Assembly (NCBI GenBank): GCA_030445245.1
Contig: JAUCSD010000001.1
Coordinates: 936,671 to 1,000,670, forward strand
Reading direction: 5' to 3'
From: Candidatus Saccharimonadota bacterium
Lineage (GTDB): Bacteria; Patescibacteriota; Saccharimonadia; Saccharimonadales; Saccharimonadaceae
Length of the DNA stretch: 64,000 bases
A program made the translations under genes and the position numbers. Below are positions 191 to 12,432 of the stretch, piece after piece. The notes beneath the pieces are model-generated. The model was not told where the DNA came from. It did no database searches and saw only the letters and a list, made by a program, of their open reading frames with translations. Numbering within the stretch: the stretch's first letter is position 1; each line of letters starts with the position of its first letter.

Positions 191-1213
191 ATGGAACCTG
201 ATAAAAACACATCTACGGATCCCGAAAGTAAGCCATCAGTAGAAGAGCCGAAAGCTCCAGCTGATGCACTCAGTCGTACGCCAGATGATCTTGAAAAAGA
301 ACAGGCTGAGCAGAAGGCTTCAAATGCCGATCCAAATGCCTCTGCTGACCCCACCGAAAAGAAGCTCTCGCCTATCAAGCGTTTCTTCCGCAAGGTCAAC
401 GTTTACCTTTTGATTTTCGTGTTACTGGTCGTTGTTGCCGGCGTCTTTACGATCGTCAATTACTTAAACAGCCAGAAAACTCCGACTGAGGCAGGCATTG
501 CGAACCAAGGGCTCACAGCCGACGCCCTTAAACAGCTTGCGAATACCGATGCGACCGTTGGTGGCACGTCACAGACACTTACCATCCAAGGTAATGCCGT
601 CATTGCCGGACAAACGCTCCTGCGCGGCAATTTAAATGTTGCTGGTAATATTCAAACCGGAGGCAGTGTCCAGACTCCAAACCTAACCGTTTCTGGTACG
701 TCAAATCTTGGTACCGCTCAAATTAATAGCTTGCAGGTTGCCACCAATACTGCTGTGCAAGGTAGCACGACACTACACGATCTGAATGTTTCAGGTACAT
801 CGTCGTTCGGCGGTGCTATGACCGCTTCACAAATTACCGTCACGAGACTTATCCTGAGCGGCAATGCTGTCTTGCAGGTTCCAAATCACATATCCTTTAC
901 TGGCCCTGCACCGACCCGCAGTATTAATAACGGTGTGCTCGGCAATGGTGGCTCGGCATCAATCAATGGATCAGACACGGCAGGAACTATAAACGTCAAC
1001 ACAGGCAACAATCCAACCGCTGGCTGTTTCACGCATATTACGTTCCAGCAAGTGTATACTAATCAGCCGCACGTAATCGTAAGTCCTATTGGTAGCGCAG
1101 CTGGGCAAACACAATACTACGTTGAACGTGACAAAGACGGATTTAGTCTTTGCGCTAGTAGTCCTGCTCCCGCCAACCAAGTATTCGCGTACGACTACTT
1201 CGTCACTAATTAG
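191..1213 (+). CDS. Single-pass surface protein with repetitive beta-type ectodomain
   Basis: 340 aa. Residues 1-65 are charged and probably cytoplasmic. A hydrophobic segment near 71-92 (VYLLIFVLLVVVAGVFTIVN) is the only membrane span. Residues about 130-235 contain short repeats built on G-N-x-x-V and L-x-V-S-G-T-S-x-x-G, as in elongated beta-structured fibres or adhesins. The last 65 residues form a separate C-terminal domain with two Cys. It probably stands on the cell surface, N-terminus inside. No enzyme motif is seen and the ligand is unknown. The start is the first ATG; no clear ribosome binding site. The same design (anchor plus repetitive ectodomain) recurs at 9994, on the other side of the F1-like ATPase operon. 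Confidence 0.75.
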   Translation: MEPDKNTSTDPESKPSVEEPKAPADALSRTPDDLEKEQAEQKASNADPNASADPTEKKLSPIKRFFRKVNVYLLIFVLLVVVAGVFTIVNYLNSQKTPTEAGIANQGLTADALKQLANTDATVGGTSQTLTIQGNAVIAGQTLLRGNLNVAGNIQTGGSVQTPNLTVSGTSNLGTAQINSLQVATNTAVQGSTTLHDLNVSGTSSFGGAMTASQITVTRLILSGNAVLQVPNHISFTGPAPTRSINNGVLGNGGSASINGSDTAGTINVNTGNNPTAGCFTHITFQQVYTNQPHVIVSPIGSAAGQTQYYVERDKDGFSLCASSPAPANQVFAYDYFVTN

Positions 1214-3373: not shown

Positions 3374-3687
3374 CTAAACATCAACAAACACGACGACACG
3401 GTTAGCTTTAACGTGCATGAGGGCGCGGGATATCTTAATGATCTTCTGACCTTCTGGCGACTCTATGACCAAGTTGCAGGGAACAAGCATACATAAAAAG
3501 TTATGATGCTTTGGCAGAATATCAAAGGGGCCTATATCGTTTACGGCGCTAATACTATAGCCGTCTCCTTCGTAGTAAACTTTGAAAGGTGCATAAACCT
3601 TAATGGCTATGGTCGGCTTGCCACCGTGAGTTTGAGCAAGCAGTTCAGCTGCACTTGCCTCTTGTGGCTGTTCTTTCTCATCCGCCA

Positions 3688-3688
<1 letters not shown>
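3374..3688 (-). CDS. atpC-like: F1-like ATPase epsilon subunit
   Basis: 104 aa. After a charged 25-residue tail comes the epsilon beta-sandwich: YAPFKVYYEGDG, then GPFDILPKHHNFLCML, matching the GPFDILPGHANFL signature of F-type epsilon. The C-terminal helical hairpin of ordinary epsilon (about 50 residues, inhibitory in many bacteria) is absent, so this is a single-domain form. In F1 this subunit grips gamma and touches the c-ring. Last gene of the seven-gene operon; its ATG overlaps the beta stop. Cytoplasmic. Because no ordinary c-ring is encoded here, its membrane partner would be the hairpin protein at 8855-9691 (inference). Confidence 0.85.
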
Positions 3689-6010
<2,322 letters not shown>

Positions 6011-6011
<1 letters not shown>

Positions 6012-7576
6012 TACTTCTTCTCCTTGGCTTTGTCATCGACGGGCGGAGCGTTGGTGGCAGCTTCTGCCCGTGCGGCCTCGTCAGCCTGACGTTTCTTTTC
6101 CTCTTCGGCTTTGGCGGCCTTTTCAATAGCTGCTCGTTTTACTTCGTCGATGGTCATCACTTCCGCTTTGAGCGCTGCTTCAAGCTCGTCGTAATTACCC
6201 TTCATGTCTTTGTCTTCTTGAAGTTTCGGCGCGTATTCGTGCACCTTTTCCTTGAGCTTGTCGACATTGATAATTTCCTCGGGACTGCTTCCCAAGATGA
6301 TGCTCATCAGAAATTGTTGCTCGGCAAAGCTATAGATTTCACCAATACCTTGGTTCATCATCTTGAAGAGGACTTTACCCTTATCGTAATCTGCCTGCGC
6401 CGCTGGGCTCAGTTCGGTACCAAAGTGAGCGTACTCCTCAGCCGTTCGATAGCCGGCAAGGGTTAGGTTAAGTTTATCTGCAAATCCTTTTTGTCGTTTG
6501 TTTTGACCGACACCACCCACACGTGTTACCGAGAGAGCCGTGCTGACTGCTGGGCGCATGGTGTCCTTAAAGATCTTCTCATCCAAAATCCACTGGCCGT
6601 CCGTGATCGACATAATGTTAGTTGGTAGGTAGGCGGTAATATCACCACCTGGCGCATACACAATCGGGACAAGGGTTTGACTAGCGTGATTTGATGCTGT
6701 TTTACCACCACGCTCAAGCAGACTCGAGTGTGTATAGAACATGTCACCTGGGTATGAGTCACGTCCCGGCGAGACACCGGCGATCAGTGAGATTTCGCGA
6801 TAGGCCTGGGCGTGGGCCGTTAAGTCATCATAGATTACCAATGTGTCCATGTTGAGTTTATGCCAGAAATATTCACCGTGCGCAGCTCCCACATACGGCA
6901 CGAGGTAGGTGAGAATCAATGACTCGAACGAGTTACTCACCACAACAACTGCTTTTTTAAGCGCGTCATTTTTCTTGAGCGTACTCACGAGTTCCGCCAC
7001 ATCGTGGTTACGTTTAGCGATCAGCACATAGATGACGGTAATGTCAGTGTTCTTCTGGTTAATAGCTACCTGCGCGGCGAGTGCCGTCTTACCCACCTTA
7101 CTGTCTCCGAGCATCGCCATACGCTGTCCACGTGCCAGTGAGTATTCGAGGTCAAGAATGGTCACACCCGTTTCAACCGGCGTATCGAGCAACTCACGCT
7201 CATAGAGCATTGGTGCAGAATGAAAAACATCCCATTCTTGGTCGGCAATGATCTCACCCTCACCGTCGATCGGCTCACCAAAAACATTAATCACCCGACC
7301 AATGAAATTCTTGCCAACAGGGATCATAATATCGCGTGCCTCAATCACACAGACTGCACCGATACGCAGTGGCGAAGGATCGAGTTTCATGACCACGACG
7401 TGGTCTTCGAGAACCTGGTGGACGTAGCCACGTGTATCATCTTCAAAGCGAACGGTTGCGTGCACGTTCGTTGGATGCAAGCCCCTGATACTCACCATAA
7501 ATGAATCAATACCAATAATCTCACCGACGGGATTTCCGTCGCTGACTAACGTATCGAATTTCTTACTGGTTGCCAC
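6011..7576 (-). CDS. atpA-like: F1-like ATPase alpha subunit
   Basis: 521 aa from the GTG at 7576, preferred over an ATG at 7615 because GGAG lies nine bases before it and the upstream start would overlap delta by 52 bases. The nucleotide-binding loop is GDSKVGKT (157-164) instead of the usual GDRQTGKT. The SVTRVGG motif keeps the arginine finger (Arg352) that completes the beta catalytic site. Also seen: SPGRDSYPGDMFYTHSSLLERGGK and LNLTLAGYRTAEEYAHFG. The C-terminus carries an extra charged tail of about 60 residues rich in Glu, Lys and Ala. It overlaps the delta stop. Regulatory/hexamer subunit in the cytoplasm. Confidence 0.92.
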
Positions 7577-8084
7577 GAAGCGTCTCCAGTTCCTTAACCA
7601 GTAGTTCGTGACCACCTTTGAGCGCCGCTCGAAGACTCAGATCGTGAACATGATTTGGCGTTCGGATGTAAGCACCGGCGATAAGTGCAGGTTGAAGCCC
7701 GACGGCAACGACTGTCTGGGGATGCACTGATTCGCGTAGCCACTTGGCAATTTGCTGCAAACTTTCGCCATCAGCAGGCACGGCAAAGGTCATGTGAATG
7801 ACCGGCGCATTTTCCTTGAGCAGATGCATCTCCTTGATGAGTTCTCCACGGTCATGCGCGCTCTCAAGCTTGAGATTATTTTGACTTATGAATTCACTCA
7901 GCTGTTGTGACATGGCAATTTCAGCATGTTCATCAGAGCCTACTCTTTCGCGAACTGAGTCTGCTGTTAGTTCGTTATCGACTCGCTCGAGTTCGTTCAC
8001 GAGACGCGAAACATCACCTTTACTCACTACATTGAGCGGTAAAATAAAGTTTGTGTGTGTTCTTTGTTGCTCGGACTCGTTCAT
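7563..8084 (-). CDS. atpH-like: F1-like ATPase delta (OSCP-like) subunit
   Basis: 173 aa. The C-terminal 70 residues resemble the delta/OSCP C-terminal domain: MTFAVPADGESLQQIAKWLR, then VVAVGLQPALIAGAYIRTPN followed by DLSLRAAL, the usual position of the D-x-S-x-x-x-x-L motif. The N-terminal half is helical and diverged. In F-type enzymes delta clamps the crown of alpha3beta3 to the peripheral stalk, so its presence argues that this machine has a stator. ATGA overlap with the preceding coiled-coil gene suggests coupled translation and a direct partnership with that protein. Confidence 0.8.
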   Translation of the reverse strand: MNESEQQRTHTNFILPLNVVSKGDVSRLVNELERVDNELTADSVRERVGSDEHAEIAMSQQLSEFISQNNLKLESAHDRGELIKEMHLLKENAPVIHMTFAVPADGESLQQIAKWLRESVHPQTVVAVGLQPALIAGAYIRTPNHVHDLSLRAALKGGHELLVKELETLRGNQ

Positions 8085-8833
8085 AGTTTCATGTCGTCCA
8101 CAATTGCTTGCTTGTTTGTCTCCATCTGTTGAATGATCGATGGTAATTGTGCCTTAAGATCGTATTGATCGCCGAGAGCTCCGAGCAGATACTGCTCAAT
8201 AATGCGTGCCATGTTGCTTTCAAACGCATTGATCAGTGACTCTTCTTGCTTGACGAGATTCGCTCGGAGGGTTGTCGCGATTTCTTCGGATTGTCTTTGG
8301 ACAGCTTCGACACTTTGGTTCAATGACAACATGGCGTCTTCCTGGGCTTTTTTAACTGCGGCCATGCCGTCCATATTTTCCTGGAACATAGTATCGACCA
8401 TGATTCTTTGATTAGCGATACTTTTTTGCAAGGTCGTACTCAGCTGTTGATGTTCTTGTTCTACAGCCTGCGCGCTCTGATTGAGTGATTGGAGTGCTTC
8501 GTCTTGTGAGGCTTTAAGTACCTGGCCATACTGGCTAAACTGGTCGTCGAGCTGTTTACTTATGTGCTCTTTGAGTTCGGTGTTAATTCGCGTGATGCTA
8601 TTATCAAGCCGGCCAACGACATGATCCTTGAGTTCATCTTTAATCTGAATGATAGTTGCATTAAGATCTTCTTTGAAAAGCTTGGCGTTTTCATTGATAA
8701 CGCTCTCAAAATACAAACGACCATGATTGCGTAACTCCTCATGAAAATTCTCGTCAAGAAAATGCCCTTCAAGGGCGGCTGCCTGTTCTTCAGTTAGTTT
8801 ACGTTTTGTTTTTTGTTTATGAAATAACCCCAT
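8081..8833 (-). CDS. Coiled-coil protein in the b-subunit position, no membrane span
   Basis: 250 aa from ATG 8833, chosen because AGGGGTGG sits in front of it; a GTG nine bases earlier is possible. No hydrophobic segment exists anywhere, unlike Fo subunit b. After a basic start the chain is long helix with heptad character from about residue 40 to 230. It contains a clear internal duplication with a period of 54 residues (DEALQSLNQSAQAVEQ... and EDAMLSLNQSVEAVQR..., each followed by TTL and a matching tail), and an older-looking shorter repeat before it (DELKDHVVGRLDN / TELKEHISKQLDD). By position, directly upstream of delta, it is the candidate peripheral stalk. How it would reach the membrane is not visible. 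A cytoskeletal or scaffold role is the alternative. Confidence 0.7.
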   Translation of the reverse strand: MGLFHKQKTKRKLTEEQAAALEGHFLDENFHEELRNHGRLYFESVINENAKLFKEDLNATIIQIKDELKDHVVGRLDNSITRINTELKEHISKQLDDQFSQYGQVLKASQDEALQSLNQSAQAVEQEHQQLSTTLQKSIANQRIMVDTMFQENMDGMAAVKKAQEDAMLSLNQSVEAVQRQSEEIATTLRANLVKQEESLINAFESNMARIIEQYLLGALGDQYDLKAQLPSIIQQMETNKQAIVDDMKL

Positions 8834-8854
8834 ATCAACCACCCCTTTTGTGCA

Positions 8855-9691
8855 TCATAGCTTTAATAGTAAATATACCGCAAATAGGCCAATAACTAAA
8901 ATCAGAATTGTTGTGAGGATAATCTCGATAAGAGCCCGGAAGATTGACTTCTTCGACATTGGATTACGACCGATTGAGATAACTCCGTTACGTACACCCG
9001 CATACAAAATGGCGATGGCGGCAACAATGCTCACGGCCGTAATGGCCATACTCAAATAGATACGAACCGGACTCACTTCTTTTTCAGCGATCGCTTTACC
9101 GATTCGCTCAAGAAAATCAGGTACTTTAGCCTTGGTGCTTACATCGTTTGGATTGTGCTTAATATCGATTGTGATTGGGATTGAACCTAGCTTAACGGTC
9201 TTATCTGTCTTTCCTGTAATATCTTTGAGCGTCGTGCTGCCAAGGATGATGGTTTTACCGTCAAATGGAGCATTTGCTCGGCCGAATACCGTCTTCTCCA
9301 CCGTTCCGGCTTTCATAGCAACACCGTTGATTGATGAGAGGGTGACATAGTCACCAATTGCGATTGGGCCATTTTGCGTACTCACCAGTACGTTATAGGT
9401 GCCAGATGGTGTAACGTAGACTTCGTTTTTAAGCGAACCGTTTGATAATGTCACGGTCAACTGGTTGCGATCTACCGTTACACCGAACATGTTCTGTAGC
9501 TCAGCTTGGGTAGCGATTTTGACGCTATTGGAATCCTTACCGGTCAGTTGGACGATCGTACCGTTATCGAGTGGGGTGTCGCTGGAATAACTCTGAACAC
9601 TTGCACCACTTTCTGCGGACACCGGTAAAAAGGCGACGGTAGTCGCAGTGAGAATAATCGCCAGGCTAAGAATAATTCGTGATACTTTCAC
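8855..9691 (-). CDS. Secreted protein ending in a c-subunit-like membrane hairpin
   Basis: 278 aa, GTG start. Residues 1-26 are a signal peptide (cleavage likely after VSA). Residues 27-205 form an extracytoplasmic domain containing GPIAIGDYVTLSSINGVAMKA, a motif of the G-D-Y-V-T-x-S-S type common in surface proteins. Two hydrophobic helices follow (211-231 and 253-276), joined by a polar loop with GRNP (241-244). This loop matches the R-N/Q-P loop of Fo subunit c, and the predicted topology puts it in the cytoplasm, as in c. The ion-binding carboxylate normally mid-helix 2 is missing; the only acidic residue (Glu256) is near the loop. First gene of the F1-like operon, so it is the candidate membrane partner (X0). 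Homology to subunit c is inferred from motif and topology. Confidence 0.7.
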   Translation of the reverse strand: MKVSRIILSLAIILTATTVAFLPVSAESGASVQSYSSDTPLDNGTIVQLTGKDSNSVKIATQAELQNMFGVTVDRNQLTVTLSNGSLKNEVYVTPSGTYNVLVSTQNGPIAIGDYVTLSSINGVAMKAGTVEKTVFGRANAPFDGKTIILGSTTLKDITGKTDKTVKLGSIPITIDIKHNPNDVSTKAKVPDFLERIGKAIAEKEVSPVRIYLSMAITAVSIVAAIAILYAGVRNGVISIGRNPMSKKSIFRALIEIILTTILILVIGLFAVYLLLKL

Positions 9692-9912: not shown

Positions 9913-10004
9913 TGGCACCACACATCTAAGTGAAATAAACATATTGTTCTCATCTAACAGATGTAGAAATAGAAATATATATAAACATAGAACATGTGGT
10001 GCCA
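9913..10004 (+). promoter_or_regulatory. Leader stem that covers the start codon
   Basis: TGGCACCACA (9913-9922) is the exact reverse complement of TGTGGTGCCA (9995-10004), which includes the last two bases of the ATG at 9994. A second, inner pairing overlapping the first arm (ACATCT at 9922-9927 with AGATGT at 9959-9964) is possible. The stem would hide the start codon of the 812-aa protein, so translation may depend on opening it (temperature, ligand, protein or antisense RNA). Confidence 0.5.
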
Positions 10005-12432
10005 CCTTTCCACCGGTATTGGGCTCCGTCGTTCGCTACGATTTGTAGCGTTAGCTTTGCTGTTTGTTGCGTTAACCACAACGCTATTATTAGCTCGTGT
10101 TTCTCACGCTACAGCCGGTACTAACAGAACGATAAACTTTCAGGGTCGCTTGCAGACTGCAGCGGGGGCCGTTGTTGCTGATGGGCACTACAATATGCAG
10201 TTCAAGATCTACCAGGATGGCGCAGGCACGGCAGTGGGCAATCCTGGCGGATCATTGAAATGGACAGAAACATACATCAATAACGGTGGGACAAATGGAG
10301 TCGATGTTAAAAACGGCTTCTTTTCCGTTAGTCTGGGTTCGCAAAACCCATTCGGAACAAGCGTGGACTGGAATCAGGACACGTTATTTCTCTCGATGAA
10401 CGTCGCGGGAAGCGCGTCAGCTTGTACGACATTTGGTACTTCTCCTTGTGGTGCCGATGGTGAAATGCTCCCAATGAAACGCATCACTGCCACGCCATAC
10501 GCTATTAACGCGGGTGCGGTAAACGGTAAGACGGCGGACAACTTCGTTCAACTTGCTCAAGGTGTCCAAACCGATGCTAGTACCAACACCAGTAGCATCT
10601 TCATCAACAAGACCGGTAGCGGTAACCTCATCCAACTCCAAAACACTGCAACTGACGTATTCACCGTTGATGAAACTGGTAACCTCACTCTTGGAAGCAA
10701 CGCGGATAAATCTATCTCGGTGGCGGTGGCCGATCCTAATACCGCTGGCAAACAACTGTCGGTATCCGGTGGCGCTGGCGGAAGCGGTTCAGGATCAACG
10801 GGTGGCGACCTCGCACTTCAAGGTGGAGCAGCTGGTGGCTTGAATGGTAACGGTGGAGACGTGACCATTAACGCCGGTGCGAAGACTGGGACGGGAACTG
10901 ATGGCTCAATCTCAATTGGTGCGAGCAATACCAGTTCAATAACAATCGGCAGTACCTCGGGTGCAGGAAATCAAAATGTCAGCATCGGCGCTAACAACAC
11001 TGCTGGCGGATCATCAAACGTTATCGTTGGTTCAGGCGGATCAGCGGATAGTGGTTCGACAACAATTCAAGCAAAAGACTCGGTTACCGTTAATACCGAC
11101 GGCGTTACTCGTGTTACCTTTGGTAATTCAAACACCGTCTACTTTGGTAACGGCGTTACTGCAGCCGCACCAAACGGCTTCACTCTTCAGGCAACCGGCA
11201 GTTCGACTGCTGGTGTCAGTGGTGGTTCACTCGCAATCCAAGGTGGTGACGCTAACGCCGGTAACACTAACGGTGGTAACGTGACAATCGCCGGTGGTAG
11301 CGGTAGCGGAACCGGCGCAAGCGGACTGGTCGTGATCAACACGCCAACCTTCTCGACAGTCACCAATGATGCAAACTGTTACGCTGGCGGTACAACGGTA
11401 GCAAGCAGTTGTACGATTAGTAACTCAACCGTCAATAACGCGGCGGCAGTTGTTGTCGGATTCAGTGCAACCGGTCAGACTGCCACTCTACCCGATCCTT
11501 CCATCACCACAGCTGGACGCATTATGTACGTGACGGCCGCTAATGGATCGGAAGATTTCACTCTGTCTATCAATGGTGGCGGTACTGATAATCACATTGC
11601 CATGCATAAAAATGTAACGGCAAGTCTGCTTTGGAACGGATCCGACTGGACCTCAACAACCGCATCCAACGCGCCGACGCCTTACTCGCTCGGCGGCAGC
11701 TCAAGTGGCGGCACACCAAACGTCCAGGTTGGTGACGGGGTAGCAAGTGGCGCACCGACATTGTTCACTGTTGACAAGGCATCATCTCCACCAGTTGTTA
11801 CTGATAGCTCACTCCTTGGTAGCATGTACTACGACACAACAATCGGTAAACTACAGTGTTACGAGGCTAAGGGCTGGGGGTCTTGTGGATCAAGTCCTGA
11901 CACCTTCGTCACCCTCAGTCCTGAGTACACGAATACGGTTACAAACGGTAACGGTATCGGCACCATGACCACTGACCTCTGTTCCGACACGCTTGATATC
12001 AACGACGGCACCTCTGGACAACCAACCATTTGTGGAAGCAATGAAACCTATAACTTCTACAATTGGACATCCTCTCAGGGTACCGCTCAAACCAAGAGTA
12101 TCTATGTTACCTATAAACTTCCGTCTACCTTCAAGGAGTTCTCAGCTGGACTAACCTCTCTCATGGGTCGTACTGACAGCTCAAATTCAAACGTCTCCTA
12201 CCAGATATACCGCAACCGTAACAGTTCTGGCATGACTGCCTGTGGCTCATCTATGCCAGTATCGACTGGCTCGCAGTCTACCTGGCAAACAAAGACCGCC
12301 AGTGGTAGCGAGGATCCATCGACCTGTAGTTTTGCAGCTGGTGATAGCATCGTCTTTAAGATCAACATGATCGCGAGCAGTAATGCCAACGCCTACATAG
12401 CGAACCTTGGCTTTACATATAGCAACAATTAG
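9994..12432 (+). CDS. Large secreted repeat protein (putative adhesin/fibre)
   Basis: 812 aa. A signal peptide covers about residues 1-41 (basic RRSLR, hydrophobic ALALLFVALTTTLLLA, then SHA). The mature N-terminus starts with NRTINFQGRLQ, a domain often found at the head of CPR surface proteins. Residues about 230-450 are Gly/Ser/Asn/Thr-rich repeats of the type GGDLALQGGAAG, GGNVTIAGGSGSG and SITIGSTSGAG, as in beta-helical or fibre shafts. A motif with SLLGSMYYDTTIGKLQCYE follows near 600, and a Cys-containing C-terminal domain ends the chain. No anchor is seen after the signal peptide, so retention at the surface is unexplained. Likely function is attachment to a host or surface (inference). 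It diverges from the F1-like operon with a 302-base shared control region. Confidence 0.75.
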   Translation: MWCHLSTGIGLRRSLRFVALALLFVALTTTLLLARVSHATAGTNRTINFQGRLQTAAGAVVADGHYNMQFKIYQDGAGTAVGNPGGSLKWTETYINNGGTNGVDVKNGFFSVSLGSQNPFGTSVDWNQDTLFLSMNVAGSASACTTFGTSPCGADGEMLPMKRITATPYAINAGAVNGKTADNFVQLAQGVQTDASTNTSSIFINKTGSGNLIQLQNTATDVFTVDETGNLTLGSNADKSISVAVADPNTAGKQLSVSGGAGGSGSGSTGGDLALQGGAAGGLNGNGGDVTINAGAKTGTGTDGSISIGASNTSSITIGSTSGAGNQNVSIGANNTAGGSSNVIVGSGGSADSGSTTIQAKDSVTVNTDGVTRVTFGNSNTVYFGNGVTAAAPNGFTLQATGSSTAGVSGGSLAIQGGDANAGNTNGGNVTIAGGSGSGTGASGLVVINTPTFSTVTNDANCYAGGTTVASSCTISNSTVNNAAAVVVGFSATGQTATLPDPSITTAGRIMYVTAANGSEDFTLSINGGGTDNHIAMHKNVTASLLWNGSDWTSTTASNAPTPYSLGGSSSGGTPNVQVGDGVASGAPTLFTVDKASSPPVVTDSSLLGSMYYDTTIGKLQCYEAKGWGSCGSSPDTFVTLSPEYTNTVTNGNGIGTMTTDLCSDTLDINDGTSGQPTICGSNETYNFYNWTSSQGTAQTKSIYVTYKLPSTFKEFSAGLTSLMGRTDSSNSNVSYQIYRNRNSSGMTACGSSMPVSTGSQSTWQTKTASGSEDPSTCSFAAGDSIVFKINMIASSNANAYIANLGFTYSNN

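Follow-up and report, generated by a model that had tools for sequence, protein, structure and literature searches.

A second F1 operon of Patescibacteria with a subunit-c-like, ectodomain-bearing protein: a probable ATP-driven motor acting at the cell surface

The window, i.e. the whole stretch of 64,000 nucleotides that was analysed from a Candidatus Saccharimonadota genome, contains a seven-gene operon (positions 3374 to 9691, called X) for a second F1-type ATPase, the first gene of which encodes a subunit-c-like protein, Xc. The products of this operon probably form an ATP-hydrolysing rotary motor turning a c-ring that bears ectodomains and is unable to transport ions; we infer both the formation of this ring and its rotation. 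With a rotor subunit devoid of ion site, a domain on the outside and giant fibre genes alongside, X resembles an ATP-powered motor for turning something at the cell surface. No published description of the X system was found among the open-licence PMC papers. The available parts of a survey of ATP synthase evolution (PMC10656485), according to which 10 of 33 CPR have lost genes for the canonical complex and CPR may have minimal complexes, do not describe an X-like system. The genes and domains concerned in the window are the following.

8855..9691, minus strand: Xc, c-like putative rotor subunit of 278 residues (GTG start): signal peptide, then ectodomain, then hairpin at the C-terminus
9614..9691, minus strand: Xc signal peptide, about residues 1-26 (ending in VSA), from the sequence; helix 5-20 in the AlphaFold2 model
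9155..9595, minus strand: Xc beta ectodomain, residues 33-179; fold like that of phage fibre and decoration proteins (AlphaFold2, Foldseek); same domain inside giant fibre proteins
8861..9070, minus strand: Xc subunit-c-like helical hairpin, residues 208-277 (AlphaFold2, Foldseek, profile comparison)
8960..8971, minus strand: Xc GRNP loop, residues 241-244; R-N-P invariant in 145 homologues
8081..8842, minus strand: b-like coiled coil of the putative peripheral stalk; transmembrane helix lost in the clade of the window, kept in most relatives
7563..8084, minus strand: delta/OSCP-like subunit (Pfam OSCP, E 9.4e-5; NCBIfam delta, E 4.9e-7)
6011..7615, minus strand: alpha of the second F1; start codon possibly over-extended
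5145..6011, minus strand: gamma (Pfam ATP-synt, E 3.9e-26)
3688..5145, minus strand: beta, catalytic residues intact
3374..3688, minus strand: epsilon, beta-sandwich domain only (Pfam ATP-synt_DE_N, residues 29-103 of 104)
191..1213, plus strand: n0, fibre-like surface protein with a single N-in transmembrane segment; convergent to the X operon, conserved partner
9994..12432, plus strand: family n6, secreted fibre-like protein of 812 residues; divergent from Xc, conserved in the clade of the window

The AlphaFold2 model of Xc, calculated with 24 aligned homologues (pLDDT 81), contains an N-terminal signal helix (residues 5-20), a beta ectodomain (33-179) and two C-terminal helices (208-242 and 244-277) with the GRNP motif at the turn. 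The secreted ectodomain and the helix-loop-helix with GRNP in its loop, both announced by the original prediction, are therefore recovered in the model. The single Glu256 placed by that prediction 12 residues after the proline was also correctly read: it is the sole acidic residue of helix 2, at Pro244 + 12, and the usual c-site (P+18) of the window protein is occupied by an isoleucine, in agreement with the claimed lack of a mid-helix Glu or Asp. Charged residues flank the loop (R234, R242, K247, K248 and R253), and a cytoplasmic position of this loop, as in subunit c, would fit them. For the ectodomain, Foldseek returned phage decoration proteins and phi29 gp12; as modelled, this domain is fibre-like.

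Neither Pfam nor NCBIfam returned a subunit c match above threshold for the window Xc alone, and a profile restricted to Saccharibacteria Xc did not reach subunit c in the PDB; in a first hhalign comparison of the Saccharibacteria hairpins with c, the loop alone was aligned (60%). For the Xc of locus L178, every NCBIfam match was subunit C (best E 2.5e-4, residues 215-271). When a CPR-wide profile of 24 Xc was used in a PDB hmmsearch, the first seven sequences were c subunits (best E 4.6e-5), and their alignment runs gapless through RNP and places a hydrophobic Xc residue opposite the Chloroflexus c carboxylate. With hhalign, the CPR-wide Xc gave 82-86% against canonical c versus 0.1-0.3% against subunits a, b and delta, so that the HMM-HMM comparison proposed as a check reveals a real similarity once CPR-wide relatives are used. 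Two Xc models, from different members and built on largely different alignments, were submitted to Foldseek, and the hairpin matched c-ring chains (9itt) with a TM of 0.88 and rmsd of 1.3 and 1.2 Å. Since hairpins are simple folds, a match of fold is weak by itself and becomes convincing together with the sequence and the loop. Judged from profiles and models, the hairpins of Xc and of subunit c are homologous, a link that needs the CPR-wide family, and the likeness first claimed from the hairpin is supported by profiles, loop and Foldseek alike. Among the hallmarks of a subunit c, Xc possesses the hairpin with an R-[NQ]-P loop and, CPR-wide, the profile similarity; the Asp/Glu of helix 2 is missing.

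The homologues examined were 111 Saccharibacteria-type relatives (99 unique hairpins) and 34 more distant CPR relatives, i.e. 145 in all. G-R-N-P is invariant in 99/99 unique Saccharibacteria-type hairpins and R-N-P is present in 34/34 distant relatives, hence in 145/145 homologues, and the loss of the loop in relatives, named beforehand as a sign against the c-like reading, did not occur. An acidic residue between P+13 and P+25 is found in one of the 99 Saccharibacteria-type hairpins (a single Asp, at +17) and in none of the 34 wider CPR relatives; across the 145 Xc sequences, helix 2 has no conserved acidic residue. The lack of the carboxylate is in this way a trait of the whole family. At P+12, the position of Glu256, 58 of the 99 hairpins have a Gln and 29 a Glu; this position is not conserved, and Glu256 was rejected on this ground as a shifted ion site. 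The conservation of the loop and of the missing carboxylate in the relatives indicates that these features of Xc are not due to chance.

Xc is followed in the operon by the genes for the b-like protein, delta, alpha, gamma, beta and epsilon; consecutive genes overlap at all but one of the six junctions, where 12 bases separate them. The elements of an F1-ATPase are all found: the Walker A motif and the catalytic Glu of beta are kept in 112/112 sequences, the arginine finger of alpha is conserved, and gamma and epsilon are present. No subunit a occurs in the X operon, so that X does not have the subunit a of an ion-coupled F1Fo complex; the single subunit a of the genome belongs to the canonical operon. 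The epsilon C-terminal helices restrain ATP hydrolysis in many bacteria. The X epsilon, with 104 residues, has no room for these inhibitory helices, so that ATP hydrolysis should be favoured. The b-like protein has an N-terminal transmembrane helix in most relatives, absent in the clade of the window, including the strain TM7i. The position of gamma and epsilon downstream, the exact co-occurrence of Xc with the X alpha and the absence of subunit a strongly favour a role of Xc as rotor, and the c-like reading as a whole is reinforced by the full F1 gene set that adjoins Xc, a context absent from the original prediction. Promoter and terminator scans gave no better results on the operon than on shuffled sequences, and a PHROGs search returned one weak match only, of unknown function.

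Elsewhere in this genome, which measures 1.16 Mb and is 99.45% complete, lies an ordinary operon with the genes for a, c, b, delta, alpha, gamma, beta and epsilon, which makes X a second and different F-type ATPase. Common to both systems are the five subunits alpha to epsilon, b, and a c hairpin carrying GRNP. However, the canonical c has 70 residues and a helix-2 Asp, whereas Xc has 278 residues and no carboxylate at the c-site; the canonical complex has a subunit a and an epsilon of 149 residues, whereas X has no subunit a and the shorter epsilon. In the alpha tree and in the beta tree, a branch (SH-aLRT 99 and 100) separates all the X sequences from the canonical CPR, E. coli and N-ATPase sequences of these trees, which contain no Mycoplasma sequences. 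The X alpha and beta form a deep group of their own.

Xc was detected in 28 of 61 genomes from different genera, and the special X alpha in exactly those 28. In a scan of named genomes, 198 Xc relatives were obtained and 80 were kept; in 76 of these 80 loci (a figure that includes loci cut by contig ends), Xc is followed by the X gene order in whole or in part, with all seven genes in most cases. Candidatus Saccharibacteria bacterium TM7i (L094, CP075337.1) is a cultivated carrier. A phylum-wide sample gave matches in 143 of 380 genomes, some being ectodomain-only matches inside giant proteins, and the same X operon was present in most loci from other CPR families. The X system is therefore widespread in Patescibacteria. 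In 17 of 36 X-bearing genomes, the single-contig G200, G291 and G324 included, no subunit a was found, and apart from X these 17 genomes showed no hint of another F1 alpha/beta pair; the PF00006 matches that remain are weak (at most about 100 bits) and are presumably Rho-type ATPases. With no subunit a and no other F1 pair, X should be the sole F-type ATPase of these genomes.

The genes around Xc point to surface fibres. The n0 gene is present in 23 of 28 X genomes and in 0 of 33 genomes without X, one of the 23 matches lying inside a giant protein. The n6 protein of 812 residues is a probable partner of Xc, by neighbourhood only. Giant proteins of 1885-1895, 1524 and 3226 residues contain the Xc ectodomain as well, and in one case it stands directly before a tip domain that n0 also has. 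Among 41 Xc genes from loci other than the typical Saccharibacteria ones, 25 have, no more than 3 kb away, a fibre-like ORF of 500 residues or more, as a raw count from a composition-based criterion without a random-position baseline. Some genomes have extra Xc genes without F1 genes, beside giant fibre genes; conversely, in G043, G037 and G054 (L057-L059) the X operon has no Xc of its own, the Xc gene lying elsewhere (in G037 and G043 at least, next to a gene for a giant fibre). Unlinked Xc copies beside giants and operons without their own Xc are the pattern to be expected were Xc to link fibres to a shared motor. A partnership of Xc with fibres is likely, on the basis of neighbourhood and shared domains. 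The conserved upstream genes n2-n5 were discarded as partners: n2, n3 and n4 are housekeeping genes (aminotransferase V, TatD and a class I, Met-type, tRNA synthetase), and n5, which has no Pfam match, was excluded by its place among them only.

In the proposed motor, alpha3beta3 would hydrolyse ATP and turn gamma-epsilon, as suggested by the intact catalytic residues, and gamma-epsilon would grip the R-N-P loops of a membrane ring of Xc hairpins, as suggested by the homology to subunit c, while delta and the b-like coiled coil would hold alpha3beta3. Having neither subunit a nor ion-binding carboxylate, the Xc ring should move no ions. The work would be delivered on the outer face by a crown of fibre-type ectodomains turning at the cell surface, with n0 and, elsewhere, giant membrane-anchored fibres as likely partners or load, and the function may be the gripping, moving or wrapping of material on a host or a surface. 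With less assurance, we incline to a broader reading in which X represents a third use of rotary ATPases, spread across the phylum: an outward c-ring rotor spinning or winding fibre-binding domains on CPR episymbionts and converting cytoplasmic ATP into work on the host cell. If true, X would be a natural rotary ATPase without ion coupling whose rotor reaches outside the cell, a route by which rotation is delivered from cytoplasmic ATP to the cell surface, and a concrete candidate for host handling by the ultra-small CPR bacteria. The "ATP synthase" genes of many CPR genomes would then not be those of ATP synthases, which changes the reading of energy metabolism where X is the sole F-type ATPase (17/36). 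The cultivated carrier TM7i makes the motor idea testable.

The nearest analogues of X appear to be the mycoplasma F1-like X0 and G1 ATPases. Like X, the F1-like X0 (Type 3) is a second F1-like ATPase beside a normal F1Fo, with seven genes, no subunit a and a surface task, and its Protein 5 has, per the text of the papers, the outline of Xc, i.e. a signal peptide, an ectodomain and two C-terminal transmembrane helices (PMC3369863, PMC12994834). On this model, X would not rotate a complete ring but would, through ATP-driven changes of conformation, push across the membrane or make brief contacts through it, a mechanism suggested for X0 with MIB-MIP; Xc would then be an adaptor comparable to Protein 5. 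We regard this as unlikely. The mycoplasma system is reported to have no b homologue and an alpha devoid of the N-terminal helix for contact with delta and b (PMC3369863, PMC12994834), and its clusters encode a protein with 12 TM helices and a small one of the cytoplasm. X, in contrast, has stator genes for delta and the b-like protein and lacks a 12-TM gene, that of the 12-TM Protein 1 being absent from the window operon and its conserved neighbours. Moreover, the hairpin of Xc is demonstrably subunit-c-like and its R-N-P loop is invariant; the retention of the c loop and of the stator in X argues for rotation over pushing. On the MMOB1660/MSC_0618-type families, X alpha/beta scored 328 versus a cut-off of 600 and 395 versus 570 bits, and were outscored by the canonical alpha/beta. 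Such scores, far under the cut-offs and below the canonical ones, indicate no special kinship, and on this sequence evidence X is not a member of the F1-like X0 families of Type 2 or Type 3. The available parts of PMC8406192 and PMC11864180 describe the G1-ATPase of the Mycoplasma mobile gliding motor (Type 2) as an F1-type motor whose motion is believed to reach a surface protein, in which it resembles X; it differs by its internal chains of twin F1 motors and an extra N-terminal domain of beta, and the same parts propose a transmission via MMOB1610/1650 and name no c-ring homologue. N-ATPases (alternate F1Fo) are also second F-type ATPases of their genomes, but have a subunit a, a c of ordinary size and another gene order; X was rejected as an N-ATPase, its alpha and beta being apart from them in the trees (SH-aLRT 99 and 100).

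The frequent vicinity of giant fibre genes to Xc, including its unlinked copies, would also suit a rotary secretion motor in which F1 powers the export or assembly of the giant fibres through a ring of Xc. This is a rather improbable explanation: the fibres bear ordinary N-terminal transmembrane or signal sequences, the X operon has no membrane export-gate genes and the export ATPases FliI and SctN are not known to have gamma, delta and b of the X type. That X is still an ion pump, Xc working with the canonical subunit a or binding ions without a carboxylate, is very improbable; the genome of the window does have one canonical subunit a, but 17 of 36 X genomes, some of them single-contig, have none, and helix 2 is without conserved acidic residue in 145 sequences. 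The divergence of the X sequences from the canonical subunits could finally evoke a decaying ATP synthase duplicate, to which we give almost no credence and which is ruled out by the phylum-wide conservation of operon order and catalytic residues; the loop is equally conserved, and alpha and beta form the deep group described above. The ATP-driven rotary motor acting at the surface is the reading that we retain as the most probable.

Several minor observations were made on the loci outside the window. In several CPR lineages, the giant proteins consist of an N-terminal MerR-type HTH, a TM segment and a fibre, so that a domain of DNA-binding type is attached to a fibre outside the cell. This architecture, usually with one TM helix and with up to about 2,800 residues of fibre, occurs in L171:1-2484, L192:10709-18001, L193, L194, L175-L178, L180 and L182, the HTH being Pfam-checked in L171 and L192 only, and the giant fibre of L171:1-2484 contains an intein splicing domain (Pfam, E 1e-22). 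In L130, L133 and L145, Xc is accompanied by the n0 and n1 surface genes with no nearby F1 genes. In the f104 genomes (L167-L170), one X operon is flanked by two different Xc genes; in f104 genomes, two secreted proteins (376 and 317 residues) and a multi-TM protein of 270 residues are also encoded between Xc and the b-like gene (L168:6364-9175), and these are possible surface or stator parts.
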